Shown piece by piece: positions 7,715-23,382 of a stretch of DNA of 64,000 nucleotides. Made by a program: the position numbers and the translations under genes. The first letter of the stretch is position 1; each line of letters begins with the position of its first letter. The stretch is taken from NCBI RefSeq assembly GCF_030733745.1, contig NZ_JASHIK010000008.1:124001-188000 (forward strand), read 5' to 3'. The stretch is from Stappia sp. MMSF_3263. Its GTDB lineage: Bacteria > Pseudomonadota > Alphaproteobacteria > Rhizobiales > Stappiaceae. Below the pieces are notes generated by a model that was not told the DNA's origin, searched no databases, and saw only the letters and a program-made list of their open reading frames with translations.

Positions 7715-8746
7715 TCACGGTCGCGGATAGAGCTTCACGCCCGTGCCGGTGACGGAAAAGCCGGCCATGTAGGGATCGCGTTCGTCGAGCGTGATCGTCG
7801 ACGTTCCTGTCTTCACTGCCCAGCCCTCGATGGTCGGAACGATGGCGGGCAGACCGCCCACCTTCGTCTCCTCCTTGATCCCGCCGGTGAAGAGCGAACC
7901 GATGACGCTTTCATGCACGAACCGGTCGCCGGTTTTCAGATGCCCGCGCGCGTGCAACTGGGCAAGGCGCGCTGATGTTCCGGTTCCGCAAGGGCTCCGG
8001 TCGATCGCCTTGTCGCCGTAGAAGACGGCGTTGCGGGCATCCGCTCCCGGTTGTGTCGCACGCCCCGTCCATTGGATGTGCGTGATGCCGCGGATACGCG
8101 CGTCTGCCGGGTGGACCATCTCGTAGGTCTCGTTCAGCGCCACGCGAAGAGCGGGACTGACCGCCACGAGCCGGTCGATCTCCACCGAGCCGACACCGCC
8201 GAAGTTTTCCTGTGGCTCGATGATCGCGTAGAAATTGCCGCCATAGGCGACATCGAATCTTAGCCGGCCAAATTCCGGGCAGTCGATCTCCAGATCGCGC
8301 GCCGCAAGGAAGGAGGGCACATTGGTCAGGCGCACGCTCCTCACGTGTTCGCCGTCCATCTCGTAGTCGGCAATCACGAGGCCAGCCGGAGTTTCCAGCC
8401 GCGCCGTCCCCGGCGTTGCCGGCCGCAACAGCCCTTCCTCGATCGCCATCGTCACCGTGCCGATGGTTCCGTGCCCGCACATCGGCAGGCAGCCCGAGGT
8501 CTCGATGTAGAGCACGCCGATATCGCAGTCAGGTCTGGTCGGCGGATAGAGGATCGAGCCGGACATCATGTCGTGGCCGCGCGGCTCGAACATGAGCCCG
8601 GTTCGGATCCAGTCGTAGCGAGCGAGGAAATCCGCCCTCCGCGCCAGCATGCTGTCACCGGCAAGCTGCGGACCGCCGCTGGCGACAAGGCGCACGGGAT
8701 TGCCGCAAGTATGGCCGTCGATGCAGAAGAACGTATGGCGGGCCAC
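7715..8746 (-). CDS. 4-hydroxyproline 2-epimerase
   Basis: A 343-residue member of the proline racemase family. Both catalytic cysteines are present: Cys90 in MCGHGTIG and Cys253 in SPCGTGTSARLA. The Cys/Cys pair separates racemases and epimerases from the Cys/Thr dehydratases. It should convert trans-4-hydroxy-L-proline to cis-4-hydroxy-D-proline in the cytoplasm. The start is GTG at 8746, preceded by GGGGAG. The next gene upstream, the FAD oxidase, ends 28 bp away and the deaminase follows, so the three probably form one operon read from the operator region near 11 kb. Substrate preference for hydroxyproline over proline is inferred from these neighbours. Confidence 0.92.
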   Translation of the reverse strand: MARHTFFCIDGHTCGNPVRLVASGGPQLAGDSMLARRADFLARYDWIRTGLMFEPRGHDMMSGSILYPPTRPDCDIGVLYIETSGCLPMCGHGTIGTVTMAIEEGLLRPATPGTARLETPAGLVIADYEMDGEHVRSVRLTNVPSFLAARDLEIDCPEFGRLRFDVAYGGNFYAIIEPQENFGGVGSVEIDRLVAVSPALRVALNETYEMVHPADARIRGITHIQWTGRATQPGADARNAVFYGDKAIDRSPCGTGTSARLAQLHARGHLKTGDRFVHESVIGSLFTGGIKEETKVGGLPAIVPTIEGWAVKTGTSTITLDERDPYMAGFSVTGTGVKLYPRP

Positions 8747-8774: not shown

Positions 8775-10019
8775 TCAGAACCGGTCGATGGCGTAGGGCG
8801 AAAGGTCGATCTCCGGCTCTTTTCCGGCGATCAGGTCGGCAACCAGATCGCCGGTAACGGCGGCTTGCGTCAAGCCGTGATGCGCGTGACCGAAGGCATA
8901 GACGACCCCCGGCGTGGTCCGGCTGGCGGAAATGACTGGCAGGCTGTCGGGGAGCGAGGGGCGAAAACCCATCCAGCGCTCGCCCCGTGCCGTGTCAAGC
9001 TGCGGCACCACTCGCTTCGCCCGGGTCACGAGCGCATCGACCCGCTTCCAGTTCGGTGCGGCATCGAGCCCTGCAAACTCCACCGCGCCACCGATGCGCA
9101 GGCCCGCCTGGATCGGCGACAACACGAACCCATAGCCCGCCAGCATGACGAAACGCCGGAAGGCGACCCCGGGATCAGGCACCGTGATGTTGTAGCCGCG
9201 CTCTGTGTCGAGCGGCACATCCTCGCCGAGTTTCGAGGCGAATCGGCGCGACCACGCACCGCAGGCGATCACCAGTTGCCCGGCACGCCGAACCGGCCCC
9301 TCGCGCATGCGCAACAGCACATCGTCACCGCTGCGCCCGACGCACACGGCCTCACCCTCCTCGATCACGCCGCCGCGTGCCCGCACATGGGCGGCGAGGT
9401 CGAGGCACATGCCATGCGGGTCGTCGAGATGCATCCAGCCCGGGACAAAGGCGCCTCCGGCAACGCCCGGCCCGAGATCCGGTTCCATCTCGCGCAATGC
9501 GTCGCCGGACAGTTCGTGCACCTCAATGCCGTGATCGCGCTGCAACTGCCAACCGGCACGCGCGCCGGCGATCTCCCGTTGCTTGTCGAAGACATCAAGG
9601 CATCCCTCGCGGCGCACCCGAGCCCCGCTTCCCGTTTCGCTCCACAACCGCTCCCATGCCGGTACGGCCGCGCCGTTCAGCGCGGCGATGGCGGAAACCG
9701 ACTTCCGCCAGTTGGCCGGCCGCGAGGCCCCCATGAAGCGCAACATCCACGGCAGGATCGAGATCGCATAGGAGGGACGCAACGACAACGGACCGAGCGG
9801 ATCGAGCAGCCAGCCGGGCGCCTTGCGCCAGATGCCGGGCGAGGCGAGTGGCGCGACATCCGTCCAGGCAATGCCTGAGGCATTGCCGCGCGAGGTCGCG
9901 CCGCCCGGTTCTCCCCGGTCGATCACCGTGACGGCATGGCCACGACCCAGCAGCGTCGCCGCCGTGGCGAGGCCGATGACGCCGGCGCCCAGAATGGTCA
10001 CGTGGGGCAGATCGCTCAT
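8775..10019 (-). CDS. FAD-dependent D-hydroxyproline oxidase/dehydrogenase (DadA-like)
   Basis: A 414-residue DAO-fold flavoenzyme. The N-terminal dinucleotide-binding motif is GAGVIGLATAATLL, followed by VIDRGEPGGATS. The C-terminal GMRP-like region appears as ERWMGFRPSLPDSLPVIS, followed by the VYAFGHAHHGLTQA segment typical of DadA-like enzymes. Between the epimerase and the deaminase genes, its likely reaction is oxidation of cis-4-hydroxy-D-proline to delta1-pyrroline-4-hydroxy-2-carboxylate. Single-subunit dehydrogenase versus oxygen-using oxidase cannot be told from sequence. ATG at 10019. It is 44 bp downstream of the deaminase gene. Confidence 0.88.
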   Translation of the reverse strand: MSDLPHVTILGAGVIGLATAATLLGRGHAVTVIDRGEPGGATSRGNASGIAWTDVAPLASPGIWRKAPGWLLDPLGPLSLRPSYAISILPWMLRFMGASRPANWRKSVSAIAALNGAAVPAWERLWSETGSGARVRREGCLDVFDKQREIAGARAGWQLQRDHGIEVHELSGDALREMEPDLGPGVAGGAFVPGWMHLDDPHGMCLDLAAHVRARGGVIEEGEAVCVGRSGDDVLLRMREGPVRRAGQLVIACGAWSRRFASKLGEDVPLDTERGYNITVPDPGVAFRRFVMLAGYGFVLSPIQAGLRIGGAVEFAGLDAAPNWKRVDALVTRAKRVVPQLDTARGERWMGFRPSLPDSLPVISASRTTPGVVYAFGHAHHGLTQAAVTGDLVADLIAGKEPEIDLSPYAIDRF

Positions 10020-10063: not shown

Positions 10064-10957
10064 TCAAACGTTGGGCAGAACCGGCCGGCACTCAAGGGCC
10101 GCACGGACGATACCGTCGACCCGGTCCGCCTCGGCTCCCGAAAGCGCCATGCGCGGTGCCCGGCAACGGTCGTTGGACCGGATCGCGTGAACCTCCGCGC
10201 GCTTGATGTTCTGGACCAGATTGGTCGACACATCGAGGTCGAGCAAGGGGCGGAACCAGCGGTAAATCGCCCGCGCTTCCTCGATGCGTCCGGCCTGCGC
10301 CAGCTTCCAGATCGCCACCGTCTCTTTCGGGAAGGCGACGACGAGGCCGGCGACCCAGCCGGTTGCGCCCATCACAAGGCTTTCCAGCGCCAGGTTGTCG
10401 ACACCGGTAAAGACGTCGAAACGATCGCCGAAATGCGAGATCACCTCGCTGACGCGGCGGATGTCGTCGGTGGATTCCTTCATCGCCACGACCAGCGGCT
10501 CGACGGCGAGCGCCTCGAACATCGGCTGGGTCACATCGACGCCATAGGCCACCGGATTGTTGTAGATCATCGTCGGCACGCCGGCGGCACGTGTCACGGC
10601 CAGCAGGTGGGCAACCGTCTCGTGCGGCGCCGACTTGTAGGGAACGCCCGGCAGCACCATCAACCCGTCGGCTCCGGCCTTCGCCGCCGCCTGCGCTGCC
10701 GAAACGGCGCGCCTTGTCGAACTCTCGCAGACCGTCATCAGCACCGGGCGACCTCCGGAGACCGACTTCCCGATCGCCAGGATCTCGAGCTTTTCCTCCG
10801 GCTCCAGCGCCATTGCCTCGCCAAGTGAACCGCACACGATGAGGCCGTCGACACCAGCCTCGACCTGCAACGCGAAGCAGCGCTCCATTTCGGCCCTGTC
10901 GAGCCTGTCATCATCGGTGAACTTGGTCGTTACCGCCGGAAAGACGCCCTGCCACAT
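10064..10957 (-). CDS. Pyrroline-4-hydroxy-2-carboxylate deaminase (DapA/NAL superfamily)
   Basis: A 297-residue class I aldolase-fold protein of the dihydrodipicolinate synthase family. The Schiff-base lysine is Lys160 (VVAMKESTDD) and the partner tyrosine is Tyr132 (MIYNNPVAYG). A GSLGEAMAL segment near residue 43 replaces the usual GTTGE. In hydroxyproline operons, members of this family deaminate and dehydrate pyrroline-4-hydroxy-2-carboxylate to alpha-ketoglutarate semialdehyde. I chose ATG 10957 because AAGGAG lies just upstream; the in-frame extension to 11014 would run through the operator. First gene of the minus-strand operon; divergent from the GntR regulator. Confidence 0.88.
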   Translation of the reverse strand: MWQGVFPAVTTKFTDDDRLDRAEMERCFALQVEAGVDGLIVCGSLGEAMALEPEEKLEILAIGKSVSGGRPVLMTVCESSTRRAVSAAQAAAKAGADGLMVLPGVPYKSAPHETVAHLLAVTRAAGVPTMIYNNPVAYGVDVTQPMFEALAVEPLVVAMKESTDDIRRVSEVISHFGDRFDVFTGVDNLALESLVMGATGWVAGLVVAFPKETVAIWKLAQAGRIEEARAIYRWFRPLLDLDVSTNLVQNIKRAEVHAIRSNDRCRAPRMALSGAEADRVDGIVRAALECRPVLPNV

Positions 10958-10981
10958 GATTGGATACTCCTTGCCGTCAAC

Positions 10982-10991
10982 TGATATATCA
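10982..10991. promoter_or_regulatory. TGATATATCA operator, copy 1
   Basis: A perfect 10-bp palindrome 24 bp upstream of the deaminase start codon, in the divergent promoter region shared with the GntR gene. An identical copy lies 56 bp away and a third lies upstream of the dioxovalerate dehydrogenase. Assignment to the adjacent GntR protein is inferred from position and repetition. Confidence 0.72.
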
Positions 10992-11037
10992 GAAGCTGGA
11001 GGCCACATTTTCACGTGACTTTCTTTCTGTCAACAAC

Positions 11038-11047
11038 TGATATATCA
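11038..11047. promoter_or_regulatory. TGATATATCA operator, copy 2
   Basis: The second perfect copy of the palindrome, 52 bp upstream of the GntR start. It shares the left-flanking bases CAAC with copy 1. Spacing between the copies is 56 bp centre to centre, so a regulator could control both divergent promoters and its own synthesis. Confidence 0.72.
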
Positions 11048-11099
11048 AGACTGGACAGCACGTATCGCGATGCCTCTGAAGAAGCATGAGGAGACAAGG

Positions 11100-11837
11100 A
11101 TGGCCCCCGAGCACACCGTGGCGACCGCCCTCGACAACGGCAACGGGCGGCCCGTGGCAGCGGACGACGGCGGCAACGAGGAAAGCCGGGCGGCGCGGGC
11201 CTACCGGGCGCTCGAAGAACAGATCGTCACCTTGCGCCTTGCTCCCGGCGCGGCAATCACCGAGAACCGGCTTGCCGCGCTGCTCGAAATGGGCCGCACC
11301 CCGATCCGCGAGGCCATCCAGCGTTTGGCCTGGGAAGGCCTGGTCACCATCCGCCCGCGCCTTGGCATTCTTGTTGCGGACATCAATCCCGGCGACTTCG
11401 GCCGCGTTCTGGATGCCCGCCACGCGCTGGAACTGCTGTTGACGGGGGCAGCCGCGCATCTTGCCAGCCGCACCGAACGCGACCGGCTGGCGGACTGCGC
11501 CCGCGCCATGCGCGATGCCGCAGCACGTGGCGATGTCGAGGATTTCATGCGACAGGACAAGACCTTCGACGAGATCGTCGCAGTCGCCGCCTGCAATCCC
11601 TTCGCCGCCCGGGTGGTCGCCCCGCTGCAGACCCATTCGCGCCGTTTCTGGTTCCGCTATTTCGGCGAGACGGACCTCAACTCGGCCGCCTGGCATCACA
11701 TGGAGCTGATGCAGGCAATCGCAGATGGCGATGTCGCTGCCGCGCGCGGCAAGGCCGACGACCTCATGCACTATCTCCGCCGCCAGGCGATGACCCTCGC
11801 CTCGACCGGCATCCAGGCCCCCGTCTCAGCCAGCTGA
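11100..11837 (+). CDS. GntR family (FadR/FCD) regulator of hydroxyproline catabolism
   Basis: A 245-residue regulator. The N-terminal winged helix-turn-helix spans about residues 25-95 (YRALEEQIVTLRLAPG, then MGRTPIREAIQRLAWEGLV). It is followed by an all-helical FCD ligand-binding domain with the metal-site histidine region (AAWHHMELMQAIADGD). ATG 11100 has GAGGAG at the right distance; ATG 11070 is a weaker alternative. It sits divergent to the deaminase-oxidase-epimerase operon, with two TGATATATCA palindromes between them. A role sensing hydroxyproline or a pathway intermediate is inferred from this arrangement. Its last 12 bp overlap the 3' end of the convergent MFS gene. Confidence 0.88.
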   Translation: MAPEHTVATALDNGNGRPVAADDGGNEESRAARAYRALEEQIVTLRLAPGAAITENRLAALLEMGRTPIREAIQRLAWEGLVTIRPRLGILVADINPGDFGRVLDARHALELLLTGAAAHLASRTERDRLADCARAMRDAAARGDVEDFMRQDKTFDEIVAVAACNPFAARVVAPLQTHSRRFWFRYFGETDLNSAAWHHMELMQAIADGDVAAARGKADDLMHYLRRQAMTLASTGIQAPVSAS

Positions 11838-13064
11838 TCCGGTCTCCTGCCCGGCCTCCGAACGCCGCTGCGTCCGCATGAGAAGCGCAATCCCGGCCAG
11901 CGCCGAAAACGACAGGCAACCGGCGACAAAAGCGAGAGCCAGGCCGGCGGCCGGGCCGCCCGCATCGATCGCGGCACCAATCGTGAAAGGCGCCGCGGCC
12001 CCGACGATCAGCACCGGTCGCGCGATCCGCCCGAGGAGACGCGCGTAGCCGTCTGCCCCGAACAGCGCCAACGGCAAGGTCCCGCGCACGATCGTCACCA
12101 GTCCGTTCGATCCGCCATAGATGACCGCGAAGACGGCTGCCTGCAGCGGTGCGATGCCCGCCAGGGCCAGCACCGCGAAGGCAAGCAGGATGAGCCCGGC
12201 CGCGGCGATGGCCACGCCAAGCGGATGCGTCCTGCGGGCAAAAACCAGCTCAATGACCCGTGCCGCCACCTGCGACGGGCCGATCAGCGTTCCCACGGCA
12301 ACGGCAGCGACCGCCGGCAGGCCGAGCGCGACGAGCATGGCAAGCAGATGTGCCGAAAGACCGATGAACAGGAATGCGTTGCAGGAAAAGGAGAGCGCCA
12401 GCAGACCGAAGACCCGGCCTCGCGCACCTGCGACAAGACCCGCCGGCGGTGTTGCGGCAACCGGATCTCCTGCCCTGTCCCTGCCCGCACCCGCGAGTGC
12501 GTCGACGCTCGCCGCCGGCAGGAGCAGATGCGCGGGAAAAGCCAGAAGCAGCATTGCCCCGGCGAAGACCAGGTAGGTCGCCCGCCAGCCATGGTTCTCA
12601 ATCAACCAGTGGGTCGCTGGCCAGGCCAGCGTCGAGGCAAAACCCGCAATCAGCGTCAGCGCGGTGATCCGGGTGCGGGCGGCCGCGCCAAACAGGCGAC
12701 CAAGTGTTGCGAAGGCGGGATCGTAGAGCGTCATCGACATGGCCAGCCCCAGCAATGTCCACACCGCAAGATAGCCCGCAAGGCCATTGACGAGCGACAT
12801 TGCCGCCAGTCCCGCGGCCGCCACCAGAGATCCGGCGGCCATCACCCTGCGCCCGCCATGCATCTCGATCAACCCGCCGATACGCGGCGATGCCAGTCCG
12901 GCGACGAGCAGCCCGAGCGAGAAACCGCCAAGCCCGGTCGCCTTGGACCAGCCGAATGTCTCGGCGATGCGGGGCGCCGTCAGGACGACGGCATAGAACA
13001 GCGTCCCGTAGCCGAGGATTTGCGTGAGGCCGAGCAGCGCCACCGCGCGAACGGAAGGTTTCAC
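11826..13064 (-). CDS. MFS transporter of the arsR-aqpS operon
   Basis: A 412-residue major facilitator with about 12 membrane segments. The first visible is ALLGLTQILGYGTLFYAVVL, and a hydrophilic central loop (AGAGRDRAGDP) separates the halves. The GTG start at 13064 overlaps the aqpS stop as GTGA, so it is translationally coupled to the aquaglyceroporin and arsR. That context suggests export of an arsenic or antimony compound. It is not accompanied by the GAPDH gene that marks ArsJ systems, nor by arsC, acr3 or arsH. The substrate is therefore unknown. A longer minus-strand reading frame extends upstream but is Arg/Gly-rich and overlaps aqpS, so I reject it. Confidence 0.82.
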   Translation of the reverse strand: MKPSVRAVALLGLTQILGYGTLFYAVVLTAPRIAETFGWSKATGLGGFSLGLLVAGLASPRIGGLIEMHGGRRVMAAGSLVAAAGLAAMSLVNGLAGYLAVWTLLGLAMSMTLYDPAFATLGRLFGAAARTRITALTLIAGFASTLAWPATHWLIENHGWRATYLVFAGAMLLLAFPAHLLLPAASVDALAGAGRDRAGDPVAATPPAGLVAGARGRVFGLLALSFSCNAFLFIGLSAHLLAMLVALGLPAVAAVAVGTLIGPSQVAARVIELVFARRTHPLGVAIAAAGLILLAFAVLALAGIAPLQAAVFAVIYGGSNGLVTIVRGTLPLALFGADGYARLLGRIARPVLIVGAAAPFTIGAAIDAGGPAAGLALAFVAGCLSFSALAGIALLMRTQRRSEAGQETGSAG

Positions 13065-13744
13065 GCCACCTCCGGATCCCGGAGAGCGTCTCCCAGCAAC
13101 CACGACATCACGGCCAGCGCCAGCACCGCGCCGCCGGCCTGGCACAGTACGAAAGCCGGCACGTCGAGGGGGCGAATTCCGGCGAACGTGTCGCTGGCGG
13201 CGCGTGCGATGGCCACCGCCGGGTTGGCGAAGGAGGTCGAGGCGGTGAACCAGTAGGCGGCGGTGATGTAGAGGCCGACCAGCCAGGGCACCGCCTGTCG
13301 CGCGTGCTTCAGTCCGCCGAGGATCGCCGCCAGCAGGCCGAATGTCGCAACAACCTCCGCCAGCCATTGGCCCGCACCGCTGCGCACCGTCTGCGACGCT
13401 TGCACAAGCGGCAACTCGAACATCGCGTGCGCAAGGACCGTCCCGGCCAGCCCGCCAGCGATCTGCGCCGCCACATAGGCAAACGCTTCACGGGAGGCAA
13501 GATCGCGCCTGATCCAGAACACCAGGGTGACGGCCGGGTTGAAATGAGCGCCCGAGACAGGTCCGAGGATGGTGATCAGCACGACCAGGATCGCCCCGGT
13601 CGGCAATGTGTTCCCGAGAAGCGAGACGGCCGTGTCGGCGCTCAGCCGGTCGGCCATGATGCCGGACCCGACGACCGTTGCCACAAGCAGGAGCGTGCCG
13701 AGCCCCTCGGCGACCAGGCGGCGGGAAAGCGTCGGTGTGGTCAT
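13061..13744 (-). CDS. aqpS: AqpS-like aquaglyceroporin
   Basis: A 227-residue MIP-family channel with six membrane segments and two half-helix signatures: HFNPAVTL in the first half and SFANPAVAIARAASDTF in the second. In most aquaporins the second NPA is followed by Arg of the selectivity filter; here it is Val. From memory the same substitution occurs in the Sinorhizobium meliloti arsenite channel AqpS. Start ATG 13744 overlaps the arsR stop as ATGA. The likely role is passage of arsenite down its gradient after reduction in the cytoplasm. No arsenate reductase gene is in the operon, so one elsewhere in the genome would be needed for arsenate. Confidence 0.88.
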   Translation of the reverse strand: MTTPTLSRRLVAEGLGTLLLVATVVGSGIMADRLSADTAVSLLGNTLPTGAILVVLITILGPVSGAHFNPAVTLVFWIRRDLASREAFAYVAAQIAGGLAGTVLAHAMFELPLVQASQTVRSGAGQWLAEVVATFGLLAAILGGLKHARQAVPWLVGLYITAAYWFTASTSFANPAVAIARAASDTFAGIRPLDVPAFVLCQAGGAVLALAVMSWLLGDALRDPEVA

Positions 13745-14091
13745 GATCCGGCCTTTGCCGGCAACGCCCCGGACAATCCGGTGATGAACGGGGCACAGAG
13801 CTCGGGACGGTCGGCGCAACAATCGCCGACGAGAAAACCGATCAGCGCACGAGTGCCGTCAAAATCCGCACGGTAGAGGATCGTGCGCCCCTCCCGCTCG
13901 GAAGCGATGAGACCGGCGCGCACCAGCACGGCAAGATGGGTCGACAGCGTGTTGGACCGCACGCCAAGACGCTCCGCCAGGTCGCCGGCGGCGACGCCGC
14001 CCGGCCCGGCGCGCATCAGCATCCGGAACACGTCGAGACGCGTTTCCTGTCCAAGAGCACTGAGCGCCGCAATGGCATTTATCTTTTCCAT
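13741..14091 (-). CDS. arsR: ArsR family arsenic-responsive repressor
   Basis: A 116-residue winged-helix repressor. The recognition helix region is LGVRSNTLSTHLAVLVRAGLI, followed by the wing SEREGRTILYRAD. Three C-terminal cysteines, Cys91, Cys92 and Cys99 (GDCCADRPELC), form a plausible As(III) site of the C-terminal type rather than the classical alpha3 CVC site. It heads the arsR-aqpS-MFS operon with ATGA and GTGA overlaps. There is no Shine-Dalgarno sequence; instead a palindrome abuts the start codon, so a leaderless or very short leader transcript is possible. Confidence 0.9.
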   Translation of the reverse strand: MEKINAIAALSALGQETRLDVFRMLMRAGPGGVAAGDLAERLGVRSNTLSTHLAVLVRAGLIASEREGRTILYRADFDGTRALIGFLVGDCCADRPELCAPFITGLSGALPAKAGS

Positions 14092-14092
14092 G

Positions 14093-14110
14093 ATTCGAGA
14101 ATTATCGAAT
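14093..14110. promoter_or_regulatory. Probable ArsR operator abutting arsR start
   Basis: ATTCGA-N6-TCGAAT, perfect 6-bp arms, begins one base upstream of the arsR start codon. Its place, symmetry and size suit an autoregulatory ArsR dimer site that would cover the transcription start. Confidence 0.65.
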
Positions 14111-14111
14111 T

Positions 14112-14152
14112 AAAAATCCCGACGCAAGCCTCGTCTGGCACGCGTCGGGTTT
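14112..14152 (-). terminator. Intrinsic terminator after mscS
   Basis: CCCGACGC (14118-14125) pairs perfectly with GCGTCGGG (14142-14149) across a 16-nt loop. On the minus strand the stem is followed by ATTTTT, and on the plus strand by TTTT. It sits between the mscS stop and the arsR promoter and should insulate arsR. Confidence 0.75.
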
Positions 14153-14213
14153 TCGCCCACCAACAAGCGCAGCCGTACCTGGGCCGCGCTCTCCGACAGC
14201 CTGGATCCCGACC

Positions 14214-16685
14214 CTAGATCTCGTCCTCGGACGGCAGATCCTGTTTGCGCTTGCGCGGCCGCGAGGCGCGTTTTGCCGGCTTCGGCGCGGACGCCTCTTC
14301 AGCCGGCAGGTCGACCGTCTTGCCGTCCTCGGCCGCATCGGCTGACTGGGCATCGGCCACCGCAGCGGCGGTCAGTGCCACCGCAGCGGGGGGAACCGAG
14401 GTCGGCGGAGCATGATAGGTGACCTGCGGGAACGGAATCTCTATGCCGCGCTCGTCGAACACCGTCTTGATATGCTCGTTATAGGCACGGCCCACGGACC
14501 ATTGCGAACCCGGCCGGGTCTTTATGCGGGCACGCACGGTGATGGCGCTGTCACCGAAGGCGGTGACGCCGTGCATCTCGAGCGGCTCCAGGATTTCAGA
14601 CGCCAGTTCGCCGGCCTTGAGGCGGTCGAAGGCGACATGCATCGCCATTTTCACTTCGCTCAGGTCGCTGTCATAGGCAACGCCGATGGCCGCCACATGA
14701 TAGGCCCAGCCGCGCATGAAGTTGGCAACCCGGTCGACCGTGGAGAACGGGATCATGTGCGCCGTCCCGTCGAGATCGCGCAGCCGCACGGAGCGGATCG
14801 TGAGCTTCTCCACCGTTCCCGTCACGCCGCCCAGCGTCACCACGTCTCCCTCGTTCATCGCGTTTTCGAACTGGATGAAGGCACCGGTGATGATGTCCTG
14901 CACGAGCTTCTGCGAACCGAAGGAGATCGCCAGGCCGAAGACGCCGGCACCGGCGATCAGCGGGCCGATATTGACGCCGATTTCGGACAGTGCCAGCAGC
15001 GTGATCATCACCACCAGCAGGATCGAGAAAGCGTTGCGGAACAGCCCGAACAGCGTCTTCTCCCGCGAGGTCGGCAGCCGCCCGCGCGGGTTCATGCGCA
15101 GATCCACCCAGGACATCACACCGAGCCAGATCAGGAAGCCGACCAGCACGACAATACCCGCCGACGCGGAACGCCCGACCCAGTCGCGGCCGTCGTCCGA
15201 CCCGAACCAGGTCAGCACGTCGACCGCACCCCAGGCATGCAGGATGCCGATCACGACACCGATGAAAACACCGATGCGAATGAACGAGAGTACCCTGGGA
15301 ACGAAGGTGTTGAGACGCCGCTCCAGCAACGGCATCCGCTCATGCACGGATTGCGGCAGCCGCACCCCGCCGATGATCGCGCGCGTCAGGGCCAGCGACA
15401 CGATGGTTCCCGCCATCACCGTCAGAACGGACAATGCGGTCGCCCGCACCATGAAGGTCGTGGCATCGAACGGCCGCGACAGCCACACAGACAGCAGCAG
15501 CAGCACATAGAGGATCGCACCTACGTGCCACACCCGCGCCGCCACCTCGACAAGCCCGGAGGTGAACACATTGGTCTGGTTCTCGGCATAGGACAGGATG
15601 CGGTCGCGGGTCGCCTGCCGGTTGCGCATGATCGCGACGATGGCAAGCGCGACGCTTGCAAGAACGATCATCATCCGCACGGAATCGGCCAGCAGGAACG
15701 AGATGTTGCTGGATACGAGCGGCACCACGACCATCGTCCCGTAACCAAGCAGGTTGTAGATCGCGAAGAGCCAGCGGCGCCAGTAGAGCGCTTGTTCGTC
15801 GTCCAGCGGGACCAGGCGCAGCGCGCTGAATTTCGGGCTGAGCGCGAAGCGCGTCGCAACCTTCGCCACCTGAACCAGGAAAAAGGCATTCAGGAAAAGG
15901 GACTCGACAAGCTCGACCTTGCCCTCACTTCCGCTGGCATAGACGGCCACCGCATAGCCGGCGGCGATCGCGATGGCCACCACCGCCGCCTCGATCACGG
16001 CCCGCAGCAGCAACAGGATCACACGGCGCACGATCTTCGTACTTTCGCCGGCCCCCGTCAGCTTCAAGAAGACGCCGTCGGCAATACGCCGCAAGCCGAA
16101 GACGATGACGAAAACCACCGAGGCGATGACAAGTAGCCGCAGGACGATTCCCTGGACGCGTTCCCAGTTTGCACCCGCGCTGTAGGACAACGCGGTCGGC
16201 AATGAAGTGAAGGCACGGGTAATCCGCTCGGCATATGTCAGGGCCTCGCGCAGGAAGTCCTGCGTCGCCACGGCGATCCGGACCGCGATATGGGTCGGTT
16301 GGCGCTCCGCCGTTTGCACCGCGCTTTCCGCCTCCGCCACCGCCGCATCGCCAGTCGTTCCTCCGGCCGCGGCTTCAGCAGGCGCATCGGCCACGGGGCC
16401 GGCTGCGGGGGCTGTTTTGCCAACGGACTGCGCCGGCTGGCGGCGCAGATAATCGATGAGCGCATCGCGCGCACCCGGATCCTGTAGCAACCGGATAAGC
16501 GCATCCGCCCCCTGTTCGGGTGAGGATACAGGAGGTGTCGCCTGTGTCTCAGCACCCTGCCCTGCCGACTGCGCGGCAGAGGGTTCCGCGAAGGCGAACG
16601 CGATCAGAACCGTCAAAAGCAGGCCGGCAACGGGTGCAAGCCAGGACGGGAGAGAGGTAGGGGCAAAACGGCCGTGGCTGGGCAT
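14214..16685 (-). CDS. Large MscS family mechanosensitive channel
   Basis: An 823-residue protein. It begins with a signal-like segment (LLLTVLIAFAFAEPSAAQ) and a periplasmic Ala/Pro-rich region to about residue 190. Around ten further hydrophobic segments follow, then the MscS core: LAISFGSQKLVQDIITGAFI (pore-lining region), FENAMNEGDVVTLGGVTGTVEKLTIRSVRLRD (beta domain) and a C-terminal cytoplasmic part. A Lys/Arg-rich tail (AKRASRPRKRKQD) ends the protein. It opens on membrane tension to release osmolytes; large forms of this kind resemble YbiO. Start ATG 16685 has AGGAG. It is not obviously linked to the arsenic or hydroxyproline genes around it. Confidence 0.88.
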   Translation of the reverse strand: MPSHGRFAPTSLPSWLAPVAGLLLTVLIAFAFAEPSAAQSAGQGAETQATPPVSSPEQGADALIRLLQDPGARDALIDYLRRQPAQSVGKTAPAAGPVADAPAEAAAGGTTGDAAVAEAESAVQTAERQPTHIAVRIAVATQDFLREALTYAERITRAFTSLPTALSYSAGANWERVQGIVLRLLVIASVVFVIVFGLRRIADGVFLKLTGAGESTKIVRRVILLLLRAVIEAAVVAIAIAAGYAVAVYASGSEGKVELVESLFLNAFFLVQVAKVATRFALSPKFSALRLVPLDDEQALYWRRWLFAIYNLLGYGTMVVVPLVSSNISFLLADSVRMMIVLASVALAIVAIMRNRQATRDRILSYAENQTNVFTSGLVEVAARVWHVGAILYVLLLLSVWLSRPFDATTFMVRATALSVLTVMAGTIVSLALTRAIIGGVRLPQSVHERMPLLERRLNTFVPRVLSFIRIGVFIGVVIGILHAWGAVDVLTWFGSDDGRDWVGRSASAGIVVLVGFLIWLGVMSWVDLRMNPRGRLPTSREKTLFGLFRNAFSILLVVMITLLALSEIGVNIGPLIAGAGVFGLAISFGSQKLVQDIITGAFIQFENAMNEGDVVTLGGVTGTVEKLTIRSVRLRDLDGTAHMIPFSTVDRVANFMRGWAYHVAAIGVAYDSDLSEVKMAMHVAFDRLKAGELASEILEPLEMHGVTAFGDSAITVRARIKTRPGSQWSVGRAYNEHIKTVFDERGIEIPFPQVTYHAPPTSVPPAAVALTAAAVADAQSADAAEDGKTVDLPAEEASAPKPAKRASRPRKRKQDLPSEDEI

Positions 16686-16809
16686 GCAGTCTCCTGGTTG
16701 CCCGCCTTTCCGGCCCGGCGCCGAGTACGGGGGCGCTGCCGGGAAACAAGCGAGACGCGGCAATGGGAGGGACCCGCACCCGGCGTGCGGGCCCTCGAAT
16801 CTTCCTTAC

Positions 16810-18396
16810 TTACCTAGCCGATAGAGCCGCCCCGTCAACCAGACACGGTCCGTGGTCCCCATCGCCAAGCCCTTCGGGCAACAGCGCTACCGGCATGTTC
16901 TGATAGGCCACCGGCCTCAGGAAGCGCAGGATCGCCCGTGACCCCACCGAGGTCGAGCGGGTGTCCGTGGAGGCGGGATACGGTCCGCCATGCATCATCG
17001 AATGGCACACTTCCACGCCTGTGGAATAACCGTTGACGAGCAGCCGCCCGGCCTTGCGCTCGAGCACCGGCAGCAATGCCCGCGCGATCGCCGTGTCGGC
17101 ATCTTCCATCAGCAGCGTCGCCGTCAGCTGCCCCTCGAGCGCTGCGGCCACCGCCGCCCGCTCGCCCTCGTCCCGGCAGCGCACCACCAGCGCGGCAGGG
17201 CCGAACACTTCCTCGTGAAGGCCCGACCTAGCAAGGAACGCCGCCGCACTTGTCTCAAACACTGCGGGCGCCACGTGACAGCCCTTTCCGGCGCTTCGGT
17301 CCGCCTCGTCTCCTCTCTCGCCACGACGTCGGGCATCCCCTTCCTGATCGCGTGTCTCGACCGCGCGGCGATAGGCACCGGCAATTCCCGCGTTCAACAT
17401 CGGTTGCGCGGAAACATTGGCCAGCACTTCGTCCGCGGCCGCGAGGAACGCATCCAGATCCGCTCCGTCGAGTGCCACCACGACGCCAGGATTGGTGCAG
17501 AACTGGCCGACCCCGAGCGTCAACGACTGCGCCCACGCCGCGCCGTGCTCTGCCGCACGCCCGGCAAGGGCTGCGGGCAGGGCAAAGACCGGATTGATGC
17601 TGCCCAGCTCCCCGTAGAAGGGGATCGGCTGCTCCCGCGAAACCGCAATGTCGAAAAGCGCCCGCCCGCCCCTCAGGGAGCCGGTGAACCCCACGGCCTG
17701 GATCAGCGGATGGGCGACCAACGCAGCCCCCGAGGCATGTCCGGCACCCTGAACCAGAGAGAACACCCCATCCGGCATGTCGCAGGCGCGAATCGCCGCC
17801 AACACGGCGCGTGCGACCAGTTCGGCCGTGCCGGGATGCGACGGATGTCCCTTGACCACGACCGGGCAACCGGCCGCGAGCGCGGAGGCGGTGTCGCCGC
17901 CGGTGGTGGAGAAGGCGAGCGGAAAGTTCGACGCACCGAAAACGGCCACCGGCCCGATCGGACGCAGGATCGAGCGGATATCGGGACGCGGCGCCGGCTT
18001 GCGCTCCGGCAGGGCCTTGTCGATACGTGCATCGAAGCAATGTCCGGCCTCGATCCAGTCGGCGAAGAACCGGAGCTGGCCGGTGGTTCGGCCGAGTTCA
18101 CCGGTCAGACGCGCCTCCGGCAGGGCACTTTCGGCCCGTGCCCGCGCGATGATTTCGGCGCCCGCTACCTCCATCTCGCTGGCGATGCTGCGCAGGAACG
18201 CGGCCCGCGCCGCGATCGGGCGAGTGGCGTAATCGGCAAAGGCGGCCTCGGCCGCCGCCGCCGCACGGTCGACGATTGCCGCATCGGCCTCCGCGAAAGC
18301 AGGTGCAAGCGTTTTCCCGGTCTCGGGATTGCTGGCCTGGAAGGTGGCGGTTCCCACAATCCAGGTTCCGTCGACGAGATGCTGGCCGCTTGGCAT
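16810..18396 (-). CDS. 2,5-dioxovalerate (alpha-ketoglutarate semialdehyde) dehydrogenase
   Basis: A 528-residue aldehyde dehydrogenase that should make alpha-ketoglutarate from its semialdehyde, the last step of hydroxyproline catabolism. Visible residues: Asn157 in GASNFPL; Lys182 in the KGHPSHPGT signature of the KGSADH branch; general base Glu263 (YGELGSINP); and nucleophile Cys300 (GVGQFCTNPG). ATG 18396 has AAGGAGA. A TGATATATCA palindrome 81 bp upstream matches those at the GntR regulator 7 kb away. Residues 354-369 (nt 17290-17337) are abnormally Arg-rich, and the +1 frame reads more naturally there, hinting at a pair of compensating indels. Confidence 0.88.
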   Translation of the reverse strand: MPSGQHLVDGTWIVGTATFQASNPETGKTLAPAFAEADAAIVDRAAAAAEAAFADYATRPIAARAAFLRSIASEMEVAGAEIIARARAESALPEARLTGELGRTTGQLRFFADWIEAGHCFDARIDKALPERKPAPRPDIRSILRPIGPVAVFGASNFPLAFSTTGGDTASALAAGCPVVVKGHPSHPGTAELVARAVLAAIRACDMPDGVFSLVQGAGHASGAALVAHPLIQAVGFTGSLRGGRALFDIAVSREQPIPFYGELGSINPVFALPAALAGRAAEHGAAWAQSLTLGVGQFCTNPGVVVALDGADLDAFLAAADEVLANVSAQPMLNAGIAGAYRRAVETRDQEGDARRRGERGDEADRSAGKGCHVAPAVFETSAAAFLARSGLHEEVFGPAALVVRCRDEGERAAVAAALEGQLTATLLMEDADTAIARALLPVLERKAGRLLVNGYSTGVEVCHSMMHGGPYPASTDTRSTSVGSRAILRFLRPVAYQNMPVALLPEGLGDGDHGPCLVDGAALSAR

Positions 18397-18476
18397 GAAA
18401 GTCTCCTTGATGGCTTTCCGGACACGCCATGCCGGGCATCTGCTGGCCGACGAAAGCGCGACTTGAACTCGGAACG

Positions 18477-18486
18477 TGATATATCA
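18477..18486. promoter_or_regulatory. TGATATATCA operator, copy 3
   Basis: The third identical palindrome, 81 bp upstream of the dioxovalerate dehydrogenase start and 89 bp upstream of the divergent DUF2336 gene. It links the dehydrogenase to the GntR-controlled hydroxyproline genes. Confidence 0.7.
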
Positions 18487-18574
18487 GAGTGAAATCAGCG
18501 GCGCGACCGCCATTTCAGTGCAACTGATTGGTAACGGCCTGCTGTTATCCTTCGCTCCCTGAGAAGGACACTGG

Positions 18575-19675
18575 ATGCTCAACGAACTGTTGAAGCTCGC
18601 TCGCAATCCGACACGCGAGGCGCGCCGCAAGTTGTTGCAGCGCGTCGCCGACCTTTTTTTGGACCGCGTCGGGCATCACAGCGACGAAGAGCTTCGCCTG
18701 TTCTGCGAAGTCATCATGAAGCTTCTGGACGGCAGCCAGATCGAGGATCGCGCCCGCCTGTCGCAACGCATGGCGCCATGGAGCGAGACACCGCATCCCA
18801 TTGCCTATCGTCTCGCCACCGACGAAATCACCGTCGCCCAGCCGATGCTCGAGCTCAGCCCCGCCCTGACGGAGGCCGATCTGGTCAAGATCGCCAGGCG
18901 GATGCCGCAATCCCACCTTGTCTCAATTGCCAGGCGCGCCGACCTTCCCGGCCGGGTTTCCGACGCGCTGGTCGAACGGGGCCCCACCAGGGTCTGGCGC
19001 GCCGTGGCGGAGAACACCAATAGCGACCTGTCCGACTGGGCCCTGCGGACGCTGGCCAAGCGCTCGCTCTCCGACATGCCGCTGCGCAACAAGATGGCCG
19101 CGCGCTCTGATCTGACCCCGCTGATCTGCGAATGGCTGATCCCGCATGTCAATGCCAGCACACGGGTGCGGCTCGAGGCCATCATGAGCGGCGCGGACCC
19201 GCGCGAGTTGACCGCGGCCGACGTCATGCGCCAGGACATGCGCCGTCGCTTCAACCTGTTCATGGAAACCTGCGACGTGGAGGAAGCCTGGCGTCTCGTC
19301 CAGTCCGGCGATTACGGGCTTGGCTCGATGCTGCTTGTCCTGCTTGCCGAGGGACGTACCAACGACGCCTTTGACCTGCTTGCCCGGCAGACCCGTCGCA
19401 GCCTCGGCGCCGTCCAGAAGGCGGTCTTCCAGGACGGCATCGACGAGCTCATTTCGCTGTGCCACGCGGCCGGCACCTCGGACCAGGTCTTTCTCGCCCT
19501 GGCGCATCTGCGCTGCAAGCACCTGCGCATCCCCGAAAGCCAGGCCGTGCGCTGGCTCGATGCATACCGACGCTCCAGACCGGCCCGGTCAACGCAAGAC
19601 GCGGCGTCGAACGATCCTGCGGACAAGAGCCCGTCCTCATCTCCCCAGAAGCGCGATCACCGCCCCAATCGCTGA
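18575..19675 (+). CDS. DUF2336 domain-containing protein
   Basis: A 366-residue soluble protein, almost wholly helical with HEAT-like repeating units. Examples are ADLVKIARRMPQSHLVSIARR, VSDALVERGPTRVWRAVAEN and WALRTLAKRSLSDMPLRNKM. The pattern is that of the DUF2336 family, common in alphaproteobacteria and of unknown function. The C-terminal 35 residues are polar and likely disordered. ATG 18575 follows GAGAAGGACA. It is divergent from the dioxovalerate dehydrogenase, so the nearby operator could touch its promoter, but a metabolic link is not suggested by the protein itself. No operon partner is visible downstream. Confidence 0.8.
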   Translation: MLNELLKLARNPTREARRKLLQRVADLFLDRVGHHSDEELRLFCEVIMKLLDGSQIEDRARLSQRMAPWSETPHPIAYRLATDEITVAQPMLELSPALTEADLVKIARRMPQSHLVSIARRADLPGRVSDALVERGPTRVWRAVAENTNSDLSDWALRTLAKRSLSDMPLRNKMAARSDLTPLICEWLIPHVNASTRVRLEAIMSGADPRELTAADVMRQDMRRRFNLFMETCDVEEAWRLVQSGDYGLGSMLLVLLAEGRTNDAFDLLARQTRRSLGAVQKAVFQDGIDELISLCHAAGTSDQVFLALAHLRCKHLRIPESQAVRWLDAYRRSRPARSTQDAASNDPADKSPSSSPQKRDHRPNR

Positions 19676-19741
19676 AACGGCGTTCTTGCGACACCCGGCA
19701 CAATGATGCGGCCACGCTCTGGCGACAGGCTCTCCCGAAAC

Positions 19742-20179
19742 CTAACCACGATGTACGAACCAGGCCCCACAGGCTGTCAGCAGCGTGGCGGCGCCATAGC
19801 ACCACAGGCCGGGCAAGGTCGCTGCCGCGGCAAGACCACTGGTCTTCGCCGCGAAGACGACCAGGGCAACCAGCATCACATCCATCATCGACCATTTGCC
19901 AAGTCCGTGCATGAGCGCAAGTCCCAGTCCCGACCGGCCGGCAACTGCGGCGACATGCAGGGCCAGGATCTTGGCCGCCGGAAAGGCAATCGACAGGGCT
20001 CCCACAAGCACGGCAAGTCCGGCCTCTCCGTCCCGCCAGAGTCCGTTGACGATTTCGAGCAAGGACGGTCGATCGGTGAGGAAGAAGAGCCGTTCCAGCT
20101 CCATCAGGGGCAGCGTCAGGCCGAGCACGAAAGAAACCGTTGCTGCGGGAAGCACAAGGGCGAGAACAAGACGGCGCAC
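19742..20179 (-). CDS. PqiA-like paraquat-inducible membrane protein
   Basis: A 145-residue inner-membrane protein with four hydrophobic segments, at about residues 3-25, 53-80, 92-112 and 117-140. It matches one PqiA domain: LPLMELERLFFLTDRPSLLEIVNGLWRDGE, then FPAAKILALHVAA and KWSMMDVMLVALVVFAAK. E. coli PqiA has two such domains plus zinc ribbons; this version has one and no CxxC motifs. Typical PqiA partners (MCE proteins PqiB and PqiC) are absent here. The start is GTG 20179. Roles in envelope lipid homeostasis are known for PqiABC but cannot be assumed for this orphan domain. Confidence 0.78.
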   Translation of the reverse strand: MRRLVLALVLPAATVSFVLGLTLPLMELERLFFLTDRPSLLEIVNGLWRDGEAGLAVLVGALSIAFPAAKILALHVAAVAGRSGLGLALMHGLGKWSMMDVMLVALVVFAAKTSGLAAAATLPGLWCYGAATLLTACGAWFVHRG

Positions 20180-20532
20180 GCGTCAGCTACTCCGCAGTCT
20201 GCTCGGCGAGATCGGCGGCAAGATCTGGCAGACGTTCCAGCGCATGGGTGCCGCGTGCAGACCGGCATCGCGCCCGTTGCCAACAGGTGCGGAAACGCAC
20301 TGCCTCGCCGCGACGGAGCGCCGCCGGATATCGATGGAGGCCGCGACCCCGCTCCGGGCACCTTCTTTGTGGGCCTTGCCGGCCGCCGCATCTCGGATCG
20401 TCGACATGGGTGTTGCTATCCCATGAGACGGGCCCGGCCGCAAGCTCGCCGACCGCTGACATCGGCACAGCGCGAAAAGGGCGCGCGCCAGGCCGGCGTC
20501 CACCCCAAAACAGACTCAGAAAAATCGAACTC
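20180..20532. other. 353-bp region without a supported gene
   Basis: Lies between fliJ and the PqiA-like gene. Two minus-strand frames stay open into the PqiA start. One ends at 20187 (ERLPDLAADLAEQTAE) and one runs 20407-20183 (MSTIRDAAAGKAHKEG). Neither has a convincing ribosome site or a recognisable domain, and both are Arg/Cys-rich in part. A decayed small gene is possible. I see no terminator or RNA gene here. Confidence 0.4.
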
Positions 20533-20952
20533 CTAGCGCGAGGTTCCGCCAGTCTTGCGACGCGAGGCGATCTCGTCCAGGGCTTCTTGCTCGGCCGCCT
20601 CGCGCTCGTTGCGCTCGCGGATCTGATCACGCTCTTCCAGCAGCTCGAACTTCTTCAATTCCTCGAGCGCGGCACGCAGGTCCTCGCGCGCGGCTTCCAG
20701 CTGGTCGGTCAGTTCCTCAGCCGAATTCAGCAGGTTGTCGCGACGCTGCGCGGCTGCCTTTGCAAAGGTCGGATAAGCGAAATGACCGACATCCGTGATC
20801 CCGACACGCTGCTGCTCCGCGGCGATCTGATCGTCCAGCTCACGGGCCATGCGCTTGAACTCGTCGACCATCGACTCGATCTGAGCCAGCTGGCGGCGGC
20901 GCTCGTCGACCTGGAACTGCTTCAGGCGAATGAGACTCTCACGCGACTTCAT
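20533..20952 (-). CDS. fliJ: Flagellar export chaperone FliJ
   Basis: A 139-residue protein that is almost entirely alpha-helical coiled coil, rich in Glu, Arg, Gln and Ala. Examples are LIRLKQFQVDERRRQLAQIE at the N-terminus and EELKKFELLEERDQIRERNE near the C-terminus. FliJ forms the central stalk of the flagellar type III export ATPase and escorts substrates. Identification rests on length, coiled-coil character and its place 29 bp downstream of fliI on the same strand. ATG 20952. Sequence conservation in this family is weak, so the context carries much of the weight. Confidence 0.88.
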   Translation of the reverse strand: MKSRESLIRLKQFQVDERRRQLAQIESMVDEFKRMARELDDQIAAEQQRVGITDVGHFAYPTFAKAAAQRRDNLLNSAEELTDQLEAAREDLRAALEELKKFELLEERDQIRERNEREAAEQEALDEIASRRKTGGTSR

Positions 20953-20981
20953 TACTCGATACTCCCGTTACCGATGCCAAC

Positions 20982-22307
20982 CTACGCGAGAGTCATTTCC
21001 AAAAGGTTGGCAAGATCAACATAGCCCGCTTCGATCGAACTCGCCTCTCCTTTCGATTGCCCGAGAAACGTTTCAAGCGCGTCATGGCGCCGGATGGCCT
21101 CGTCGACAACCGCATCCGAACCGCGCTTGTAGGCGCCAAGCCGGATCAGTTCCTCCATGTCGGTGTAGGTCGCCATCAGGGCACGGGCCTTGCGCAGCAA
21201 AGGCTGCACATTGTCCGGCACGCAGCGCGGCATGGTGCGCGACACGGATTTCAGCACATTGATAGCCGGATAGCGGCCGCGCTCGGCGATCGCACGCTCC
21301 ATCACGATATGCCCGTCGAGAATGCCGCGCACCGCATCGGCAACGGGTTCGTTGTGATTGTCGCCCTCGACCAGCACCGTGAACAACCCCGTCACCGAGC
21401 CGGAGCCGGAACGGCCCGGTCCGGCTCGTTCCAGTAGTCTCGGCAGTTCCGTGAAGACGGTCGGCGTGTATCCTTTCGAGGTCGGCGGCTCACCGACCGA
21501 CAGGCCGATCTCGCGCTGCGCCATGGCGAAACGCGTCACCGAATCCATCATGCACATGACATTCTTGCCGGCGTCGCGAAAATGCTCCGCCACGGTCATC
21601 GTCAGATAGGCGGCCTGGCGGCGCATCAGCACGCTTTCGTCCGAGGTGGCGACCACCACCACGGAACGGGCCAGACCCTCCGGCCCGAGATCGTCCTCGA
21701 TGAATTCCTGAACCTCGCGGCCGCGTTCCCCGATCAGGCCGATGACCGCGACATCGGCGGCCATGTTGCGCGCGATCATCGACATCAACACCGACTTGCC
21801 GACGCCGGAGCCGGCGAAGATGCCCATCCGCTGTCCCTCGCAGCAGGTGACGAACGTGTTGAGCGCCCTGACGCCGAGATCAAGCGGCGGGCCGACACGG
21901 CCGCGCTCGTTGGCCGGCGGCGGCGTCGACCTGAGCCGGCGTGGCTCACCTCCCGCCGGCAACGCACCGCGGCCGTCGATCGGCTCGCCCATGGCGTTGA
22001 CCACACGTCCGAGCCAGGCGTCGCAGGGATAGGAAAGGCTTTCGCGCGCCACCAGAACCGCCCGGCAGCCCATCCGTACCCCTTCCAGACCCGCGAAGGG
22101 CATGCAAAGCGCCCGCTCCTCGCGAAAACCGACGACCTCCGCATGAACCGGCAGACCGCCCTCCCCGCTTTCCACAGCGAGCAGCGCGCCGACGCTCATC
22201 TCGTGGATCGGACCGGCGATTTCCAGCAGCAAACCCTGCACGGAGACCACCCGGCCATAGACCTCCGCGGGCATGAGCGCTTCCAGTTCTGCAAACAGCG
22301 GGTCCAT
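20982..22307 (-). CDS. fliI: Flagellum-specific export ATPase FliI
   Basis: A 441-residue AAA-type rotary ATPase of the flagellar type III secretion apparatus at the cytoplasmic face of the basal body. The Walker A motif is GSGVGKS ([12 protein letters not shown]). A Walker B-like strand [21 protein letters not shown] follows, then the family signature [24 protein letters not shown]. An N-terminal beta-barrel (residues 15-85) precedes the nucleotide-binding core. Length matches the family. ATG 22307. It forms a two-gene operon with fliJ and is divergent from ctrA; in related alphaproteobacteria CtrA controls early flagellar genes, so shared regulation through the 22.3-22.7 kb region is likely. 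Confidence 0.97.
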
Positions 22308-22494
22308 CTGATCCTCAAGGGTCGGTAAAGAAGGTCCCAGAAAGCGACCTCACGGTAACCTATCATTTACGAGTTTGGTTAATCTTAATTGCGAGGGTTC
22401 ATGGATGGAAAGCCAGCCTGGGACCCGCGTTCGGCGTAGAGGTGAGTCACGTGAGTCGTTTGTAGCGGCTCGTTAATGTGAAACTTGAAGATTC

Positions 22495-22513
22495 TATGGA
22501 AAGGATTTCCATA
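22495..22513. repeat. Inverted repeat 1 in ctrA leader
   Basis: TATGGAAA-N3-TTTCCATA, perfect 8-bp arms, shares the core TGGAAA-N3-TTTCCA with the next repeat. Their centres (22504 and 22536) are 32 bp apart, about three helical turns. It looks like one of a pair of dimer-binding sites upstream of ctrA. Confidence 0.7.
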
Positions 22514-22525
22514 TATTTTTCAAGT

Positions 22526-22546
22526 GATTGGAAAAGATTTCCAATC
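22526..22546. repeat. Inverted repeat 2 in ctrA leader
   Basis: GATTGGAAA-N3-TTTCCAATC, perfect 9-bp arms, with the same core and spacer length as repeat 1. It is about 147 bp upstream of the ctrA start. I do not recognise the cognate regulator. Confidence 0.7.
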
Positions 22547-22692
22547 TACCCTCATCGGAGCTTGCAGGTGTGAATCAGAATTTGTTAACCATTGTCTCAC
22601 ACAGTGAGTCGAAGTTAACTGCAGTCCTTAGAGCACCGGGAGCGTATCGGCCGGCGCGGCTTGCCCAGGATAGGCAGACATAGGGGATTGGC

Positions 22693-23382
22693 ATGCGTGT
22701 CCTGTTGATCGAGGATGACAGCGCCACGGCGCAGAGCATCGAGTTGATGCTTAAGTCCGAAAATTTCAACGTCTACACGACGGATCTTGGCGAGGAAGGT
22801 ATCGACCTCGGCAAACTCTACGACTACGACATTATCATGCTGGATCTCAACCTGCCCGACATGTCGGGCTACGAGGTCCTGCGCACGCTTCGCGTGTCCA
22901 AGGTGAAGACACCGATCCTTATCCTGTCCGGTCTTGCCGGCATCGAGGACAAGGTACGCGGTCTCGGCTTCGGCGCCGACGACTACATGACCAAGCCGTT
23001 CCACAAGGACGAGCTCGTGGCCCGCATCCATGCGATCGTGCGCCGCTCCAAGGGTCATGCCCAGTCGGTCATCACCACGGGCGACCTGATCGTCAATCTC
23101 GACACCAAGACCGTCGAGGTTTCCGGCCAGCGCGTGCATCTGACCGGCAAGGAATACCAGATGCTCGAGCTTCTTTCCCTGCGCAAGGGAACGACGCTCA
23201 CCAAGGAGATGTTCCTCAATCATCTCTACGGCGGCATGGACGAGCCGGAACTGAAGATCATCGACGTGTTCATCTGCAAGCTGCGCAAGAAGCTCGCAGC
23301 CGCCACGTCGGGGAAGAACTACATCGAGACCGTCTGGGGCCGCGGCTATGTGCTGCGCGAACCCGAGGAGAAGGCCGCCTGA
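22693..23382 (+). CDS. ctrA: Cell-cycle response regulator CtrA
   Basis: A 229-residue OmpR/PhoB-type regulator. The receiver domain has the acidic pocket (IEDDSAT), the phospho-acceptor Asp51 ([12 protein letters not shown]) and Lys in TKPFHKDE. The DNA-binding winged helix spans about residues 130-220 and contains segments near-identical to Caulobacter CtrA, such as [20 protein letters not shown] and [19 protein letters not shown]. CtrA binds TTAA-N7-TTAA boxes and controls cell cycle, flagella and envelope genes after phosphorylation through CckA-ChpT. The C-terminus ends in EEKAA, compatible with ClpXP degradation. AGGGGA precedes the ATG. The phosphotransferase chpT is 9 kb away in this window. 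Confidence 0.98.

Follow-up and report, generated by a model that had tools for sequence, protein, structure and literature searches.

A 64,000-nucleotide stretch of the Stappia sp. MMSF_3263 genome (contig NZ_JASHIK010000008.1, positions 124,001 to 188,000; hereafter the window) holds genes for the use of trans-4-hydroxy-L-proline at two loci, and both loci carry the same perfect 10-bp palindrome, TGATATATCA. Sequence comparison indicates, with a probability that we put at roughly 0.87, that the FCD-type GntR regulator encoded at the first locus binds three copies of this palindrome and represses hypD-hypO-hypE, its own gene gntR, and the distant hypH until a pathway-derived inducer is present. 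The original prediction, made from the letters of the window, had proposed one such regulator with three operators at two loci; this proposal is well supported by the comparison of related genomes, which conserve the word both at the regulator and at remote pathway genes; within the genus, its presence follows that of the regulator. The features concerned are as follows.

7715..8746, minus strand: hypE, 4-hydroxyproline 2-epimerase (NF010578 equivalog model, 563 bits against a cut-off of 376)
8775..10019, minus strand: hypO, DAO-family oxidoreductase (PF01266), probable cis-4-hydroxy-D-proline dehydrogenase
10064..10957, minus strand: hypD, DHDPS-family protein (PF00701), probable imino-acid deaminase with its substrate taken from context
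10982..10991: predicted operator 1, TGATATATCA, which precedes the hypD start codon by 24 bp and stands out as a conserved island when 7 Stappiaceae are aligned
11038..11047: predicted operator 2, TGATATATCA, which precedes the likely gntR start codon by 52 bp and is likewise a conserved island among the 7 aligned Stappiaceae
11100..11837, plus strand: gntR, winged-helix and FCD regulator proposed to control the regulon (PF00392, 59.4 bits against a cut-off of 27)
16810..18396, minus strand: hypH, aldehyde dehydrogenase (PF00171), probable alpha-ketoglutarate (2,5-dioxovalerate) semialdehyde (KGSA) dehydrogenase
18477..18486: predicted operator 3, TGATATATCA, which precedes the hypH start codon by 80 bp; conserved island in all six aligned Stappia clade A genomes (6/6)

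The palindrome, the regulator and the pathway genes

An exact search confirmed the palindrome at 10982-10991, 11038-11047, and 18477-18486, where it had originally been noticed, and revealed no other copy in the window; operators 1 and 2 are spaced 56 bp apart. Across the whole genome (5,024,014 bases in 50 contigs), these three copies were the only ones, which refutes frequent random occurrence of the word, and a reversed control word gave none. From the base composition of the window, 0.43 copies would be expected in a genome of this size, and 100 dinucleotide shuffles of the window yielded no copy. Apart from TGATATATCA, no perfect 10-bp palindrome with at least six A/T positions was present more than twice in the window; four G/C-richer palindromes occur four times each. 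Sites with up to one mismatch numbered 18 genome-wide versus 10 for the control word, with none of the additional ones inside the window. Near-matches in the genome are therefore hardly informative and were dropped as further targets.

A promoter and terminator scan of 10850-11200 found nothing. A Dpp-like peptide ABC transporter (23903-29265) was rejected as a fourth target, with no site within three mismatches in 23383-23960. In the literature, which was covered in part through open access, no title on hydroxyproline or GntR appeared among the examined works containing the letters of TGATATATCA, and GATATATC together with GntR returned only work that was unrelated by title and abstract start.

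The regulator possesses an N-terminal GntR winged helix-turn-helix and a C-terminal all-helical FCD domain. Its start is most likely at 11100, because a ribosome-binding-like sequence, identified by eye, precedes that ATG. Sequence alignments of the three-histidine metal site of the FCD domain placed Asp157 where the Sinorhizobium meliloti protein has His, with H200 conserved and the third His not conserved.

All four enzyme families of the trans-4-hydroxy-L-proline pathway (epimerase, oxidase, deaminase, and KGSA dehydrogenase) are present in the window, in agreement with the original prediction, with hypE above its model cut-off and the other substrates assigned indirectly. The hypE product is 64-65% identical to the epimerase of the S. 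meliloti 1021 hyp cluster and has the same two Cys motifs, while identity to the respective counterparts in that cluster was 45% for hypO (separated from hypE by a 28-bp gap), only 31% for hypD, which starts at 10957, and 57% for hypH. No listed NCBIfam model reached its cut-off for hypH. None of the models specifies a substrate for hypO, hypD, or hypH, so these were assigned from the cluster and from the published pathway, whose steps are described in PMC4113996. Among solved structures, no HypD relative was found at E 1e-30, and one distant HypO relative was found at E 1e-20. Between gntR and hypH lie genes for an ArsK-like carrier, an MIP-type channel, ArsR, and MscS, which correspond to the arsenic genes and mscS that had been described between the two loci.

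Distribution of the palindrome among related genomes

Within the genus, for which 14 genomes (G000-G013) were compared at a regulator match threshold of E <= 1e-40, ten carried a GntR match, and these held three copies of TGATATATCA (eight genomes) or four (two genomes). The four genomes without a match held 0, 1, 0, and 0 copies. By simple arithmetic, uncorrected for relatedness, a perfect separation of ten from four has a probability of 1 in 1001. G007 possesses hypO-hypE without a regulator match and without an operator before hypO, and the extra copies in G007 and G012 fall inside called reading frames; G011 has an extra copy as well.

The regulator-bearing genomes formed two clades with different arrangements. 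All six members of clade A (G000, G002, G003, G005, G008, and G012) have two copies between hypD and gntR and one before hypH, and in the five relatives hypH lies 8-11 kb from gntR. In all four members of clade B (G004, G006, G010, and G011), the regulator is 46-49% identical to the window GntR, and two copies, 45 bp apart, lie between gntR and hypH, with hypD also at this place in G010 and G011. The third copy of clade B precedes a distant hypO-hypE operon, which is the mirror image of the clade A split; in G010, the regulator locus and the hypO-hypE locus are 1.9 Mb apart. This mirror-image split between sister species, with the operator unchanged, is the most striking feature of the comparison. 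No hypD match at E 1e-50 was found in G004 or G006. These two genomes keep gntR, hypH, and hypO-hypE with operators, and an unrelated deaminase may serve there. Start positions are approximate in certain loci, L094, L095, L097, and L220 among them, because the simple gene caller fused genes there or overlooked them.

The surroundings of the two loci also differ between genomes. Compared with window positions 11837-23382, the clade A relatives L094-L098 show an inversion of the block bounded by hypH and the gene labelled ctrA, with hypH farthest from gntR. In the window, hypH adjoins mscS, as it does in L107, L108, and L256. Arsenic-type genes (ArsR, ArsK-like, and AqpS-like or ACR3) adjoin the hyp locus in the window (11826-14091) and in L100, L102, L104-L110, L113, and L122; their arrangement varies among those Stappiaceae, and none stand beside the hyp locus in L094-L098. 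The right-hand neighbours of the clade B hypO-hypE operon, which we take to be RecD and Tex, are the same as in the window. Like these two, FliI and CtrA are names that we presume for neighbouring genes.

In the family outside the genus, at least one copy of the word was present in 31 of 34 genomes with a regulator match versus 6 of 25 without. Where further Stappiaceae carry a regulator 62-71% identical to that of the window, the exact word lies 8-130 bp upstream of it in 18 of 19 cases, and the 19th has a one-mismatch copy.

To cover a wider range, we used the best 80 of at least 545 regulator relatives (37-87% identical), with at least six of the 80 in genomes that the preceding counts had already included. 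The exact word lies within 300 bp upstream of the regulator in 56 of these 80, comprising 29 of the 34 loci with an epimerase and 27 of the 46 without. The upstream regions of the same 80 contained 73 sites in 24,000 bp, compared with five in 1,513,479 bp elsewhere, two of the five being the Stappia hypH operator. In a tree built from 83 rows, comprising 76 of the 80 relatives, the window regulator, the S. meliloti protein, and five additional regulators that bear the word, one clade of 64 with a support of 99/99 holds 58 of the 59 word-bearing rows, whereas outside it one of 19 rows bears the word (L161, on a long branch); four short rows, three of them word-bearing, were left out. The word-bearing clade spans Stappiaceae, Phyllobacteriaceae, Brucellaceae, and Rhizobiaceae, with or without adjacent hyp genes.

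Two observations concern individual loci of this set. L161 (8192-14522), from a metagenome-assembled genome labelled Rhodothermales, has a compact arrangement of hypD, gntR with an exact operator, hypH, hypE, and a hypO-like gene, which transfer or misbinning of the contig might explain. Loci of Mesorhizobium and Phyllobacterium and related ones (among L120-L159 and L166) often have a weaker second operator copy 11 bp from the first. The copy at +11 averaged 3.97 matches out of 10 versus a background of 2.48, and reached at least eight matches at 9 of 73 sites. Additional boxes close to GntR sites are a known phenomenon (PMC4494728).

A full scan of 20 genomes from other families, selected from those with a word-bearing regulator, yielded 44 copies of TGATATATCA versus seven control-word hits. 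By coordinates, 17 copies are remote, and the other 27 lie at the regulator, which follows from how the genomes were chosen; seven of the 20 genomes have a single copy, the one before the regulator. When all 17 remote places were read, eight lay upstream of (hydroxy)proline genes. Six of these copies are about 42-64 bp before a KGSA-dehydrogenase-like gene (43 bp in Gellertiella), a PxpB-PxpC-dehydratase operon, a DAO-dehydratase operon, or trans-3-hydroxyproline-dehydratase-like genes. At these six targets, PxpB scored above its model cut-off, and the dehydratases and dehydrogenases scored below theirs; the L220 gene was assigned by a 34% match to the epimerase and by 77-94% identity to the other four dehydratase-like proteins. 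In Phyllobacterium G128 (L226, 4032-4934) and G132 (L229, 5392-6183), a copy lies roughly 165-180 bp before a prolyl aminopeptidase gene that scored above cut-off. This enzyme could release proline or hydroxyproline from peptides, which suggests that the regulon reaches to peptide use. Another exact operator in Gellertiella (L219, 4651-5358) lies about 40 bp before a gene for a 235-aa protein without a Pfam or NCBIfam match.

Proposed regulation and alternative explanations

In the mechanism that we propose, a GntR dimer would occupy each 10-bp palindrome, so that operator 1 would mediate repression of hypD-hypO-hypE, operator 2 repression of gntR itself, and operator 3 repression of the distant hypH; looping between operators 1 and 2 is conceivable. 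Repression is the presumed mode of action, and operator 1 lies close before the hypD start codon. Hydroxyproline, its D-epimer, or a later intermediate may bind the FCD domain and release GntR, whereupon all four steps from trans-4-hydroxy-L-proline to alpha-ketoglutarate would be switched on together despite their division between two loci. This reading rests on where the sites lie, on the absence of further copies from the genome, on conservation, and on the way in which the sites follow both the regulator clade and the displaced pathway genes.

Several observations weigh against it. The exact word is missing within 300 bp of 24 of the 80 relatives; 17 of these fall outside the word-bearing clade, one is not in the tree, and six are inside, where five of the six have a one-mismatch copy compared with one of the eight outside rows scanned. 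Six genomes of the family hold copies without a regulator match (G017, G022, G030, G032, G060, and G069), with three copies each in G017 and G032, and further copies of the word occur in G040, G044, G048, G050, and G063. Some loci of genus g2 (Roseibium group), including L106 and L122, show the order gntR-operator-hypO with neither an epimerase match nor a hypD match nearby, and because of these absences a different substrate is possible there. Of the remote copies in other genera, 9 of 17 have no clear link to hydroxyproline (not all neighbours were identified), and several may be chance occurrences, because the same genomes gave seven control-word hits. In genus g6, a regulator 41-46% identical to that of the window is present in 15 of 16 genomes, and the seven g6 regulators inspected all lack an operator, whether exact or with one mismatch, at their own gene. 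The hypH and hypD genes of g6 nevertheless carry such operators although no operator-bearing gntR was found: an exact copy stands just before the hypH-like gene in all seven genomes G018, G023, G028, G039, G043, G045, and G057, and hypD is accompanied in G028 by an exact copy and, 47 bp away, a copy with a single mismatch, and in G018 by two single-mismatch copies. The g6 operators are the main case left unexplained by the proposed regulator.

Peptide transport genes recur near some of these loci. The related gntR of g6 lies near a dppA-like gene in five of the six regions read. In L107 (7982) and L108 (12385), from the g2 genomes G044 and G050, a dppA-like peptide transporter operon, with a homologue in the window at 23903-29265, is preceded by an exact operator at a distance of about 250 bp.

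The g6 genes bear on the idea that the palindromes are operators of another transcription factor encoded elsewhere, with gntR merely a neighbouring target. The three copies of G017 point the same way, and a GntR query has 22 matches in the Stappia genome itself (E <= 1e-5). We nevertheless consider this explanation unlikely, since the word precedes gntR in 58 of the 64 clade members across four families, with or without adjacent hyp genes, and stays with gntR in clades A and B although the gene's neighbours differ; moreover, one FCD regulator, Atu1419, is already known to target a 10-bp palindrome (PMC7797058). A narrower doubt concerns operator 3, which might serve the divergent DUF2336 gene (18575) or some other process, with control of hypH incidental. 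The site lies 80 bp from the hypH start and 88 bp from that of DUF2336, which may be what it actually controls, and DUF2336 adjoins it in the annotated clade A genomes. The annotated clade B regulator loci (L099, L101, and L103) argue otherwise, having operators beside hypH or hypD-hypH without a DUF2336 match, as do the copies before the dehydrogenase-like gene in Gellertiella and the hypH-like genes of the seven g6 genomes, and we regard this explanation as quite improbable.

Chance recurrence of an AT-rich palindrome might draw on the 0.43 copies expected in the genome, the single copies inside reading frames in G007 and G012, and low-scoring distant genomes with up to ten copies. All three copies of the window are intergenic, belong to one pathway, and have no counterpart elsewhere in the genome, and conservation and clade tracking also speak against chance. 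Taken with the shuffles, co-occurrence with the regulator, upstream enrichment, and the tree, these points led us to reject a chance origin as scarcely credible.

On the preferred reading, regulation by the FCD-type GntR, the comparisons make it reasonably probable that the window GntR represents an apparently undescribed orthogroup of hydroxyproline regulators across Hyphomicrobiales. Its unusually rigid, non-consensus operator would have stayed letter-perfect while genes moved and the regulator diverged (46-49% in Stappia), and its regulon would reach to the use of trans-3-hydroxyproline and prolyl peptides. No regulator of this type was found described in the accessible open-access literature, which offers partial coverage. 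If this is true, the word can find unlinked (hydroxy)proline genes and would give a sequence-only handle on hydroxyproline genes scattered over a genome. The sister clades, with opposite pathway splits, diverged regulators, and an unchanged operator, would form a natural experiment in regulon evolution. The system also cautions against applying the name HypR to every GntR regulator of hydroxyproline genes, since orthology and operator differ.

Comparison with known systems

In S. meliloti and other Proteobacteria, the GntR-family regulator HypR (RegPrecise) is reported to control hypE, hypO, hypD, and hypH in varying operon layouts (PMC5343134). The Stappia system resembles this regulon in having a GntR-family regulator and, as judged from operator positions, the same enzymes as probable targets. 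Good alignment of the S. meliloti hyp-cluster GntR (pSymB; taken to be HypR) with the window GntR was confined to the DNA-binding domain (42% over 72 residues). When the S. meliloti protein was searched against the Stappia genome, its best match was another gene, and the window GntR ranked ninth with 49 bits; orthology to HypR was rejected on these grounds. The operators differ as well. HypR sites are listed with a FadR-type consensus having 2 nt between GT and AC (PMC4494728), which the word found here does not match, and unlike the Stappia loci, the fetched S. meliloti hyp region contains no TGATATATCA; there, TTGTCGACAA precedes hypR and hypD (read by eye, without a control). The window regulator is thus predicted to work like HypR yet to form a separate orthogroup with its own operator.

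With neither GT nor AC boxes, TGATATATCA does not fit the FadR-type TKGT/ACMA operator consensus. Such boxes are common in the FadR subfamily without defining it, because BioR and NanR are listed as members whose sites depart from the GT...AC pattern (PMC4494728). The BioR (TTATMKATAA) and NanR (direct repeats) sites are non-consensus like TGATATATCA, but they are other words serving other pathways.

HypR of Streptomyces coelicolor is a GntR/FadR-type repressor of hydroxyproline genes with the target 5'-TACAATGTCAC-3' (PMC6608401). As in Stappia, its KGSA dehydrogenase gene lies away from the operon; the system differs in its target TACAATGTCAC, its zinc-binding protein, and its three-subunit oxidase.

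A further parallel in operator arrangement is Atu1419 (VanR) of Agrobacterium fabrum, an FCD regulator with three identical 10-bp palindromes, each bound by one dimer; two of them lie in the promoter region that its own gene shares, and the third precedes a different target (PMC7797058). The Stappia regulator is like Atu1419 in the number and arrangement of its predicted sites and in a similar fold at 21-22% identity. It is unlike Atu1419 in its palindrome, in its pathway, which in Atu1419 concerns hydroxycinnamic acids, and in the spacing of the paired sites, which are 190 bp apart in A. fabrum and 56 bp apart in the window.

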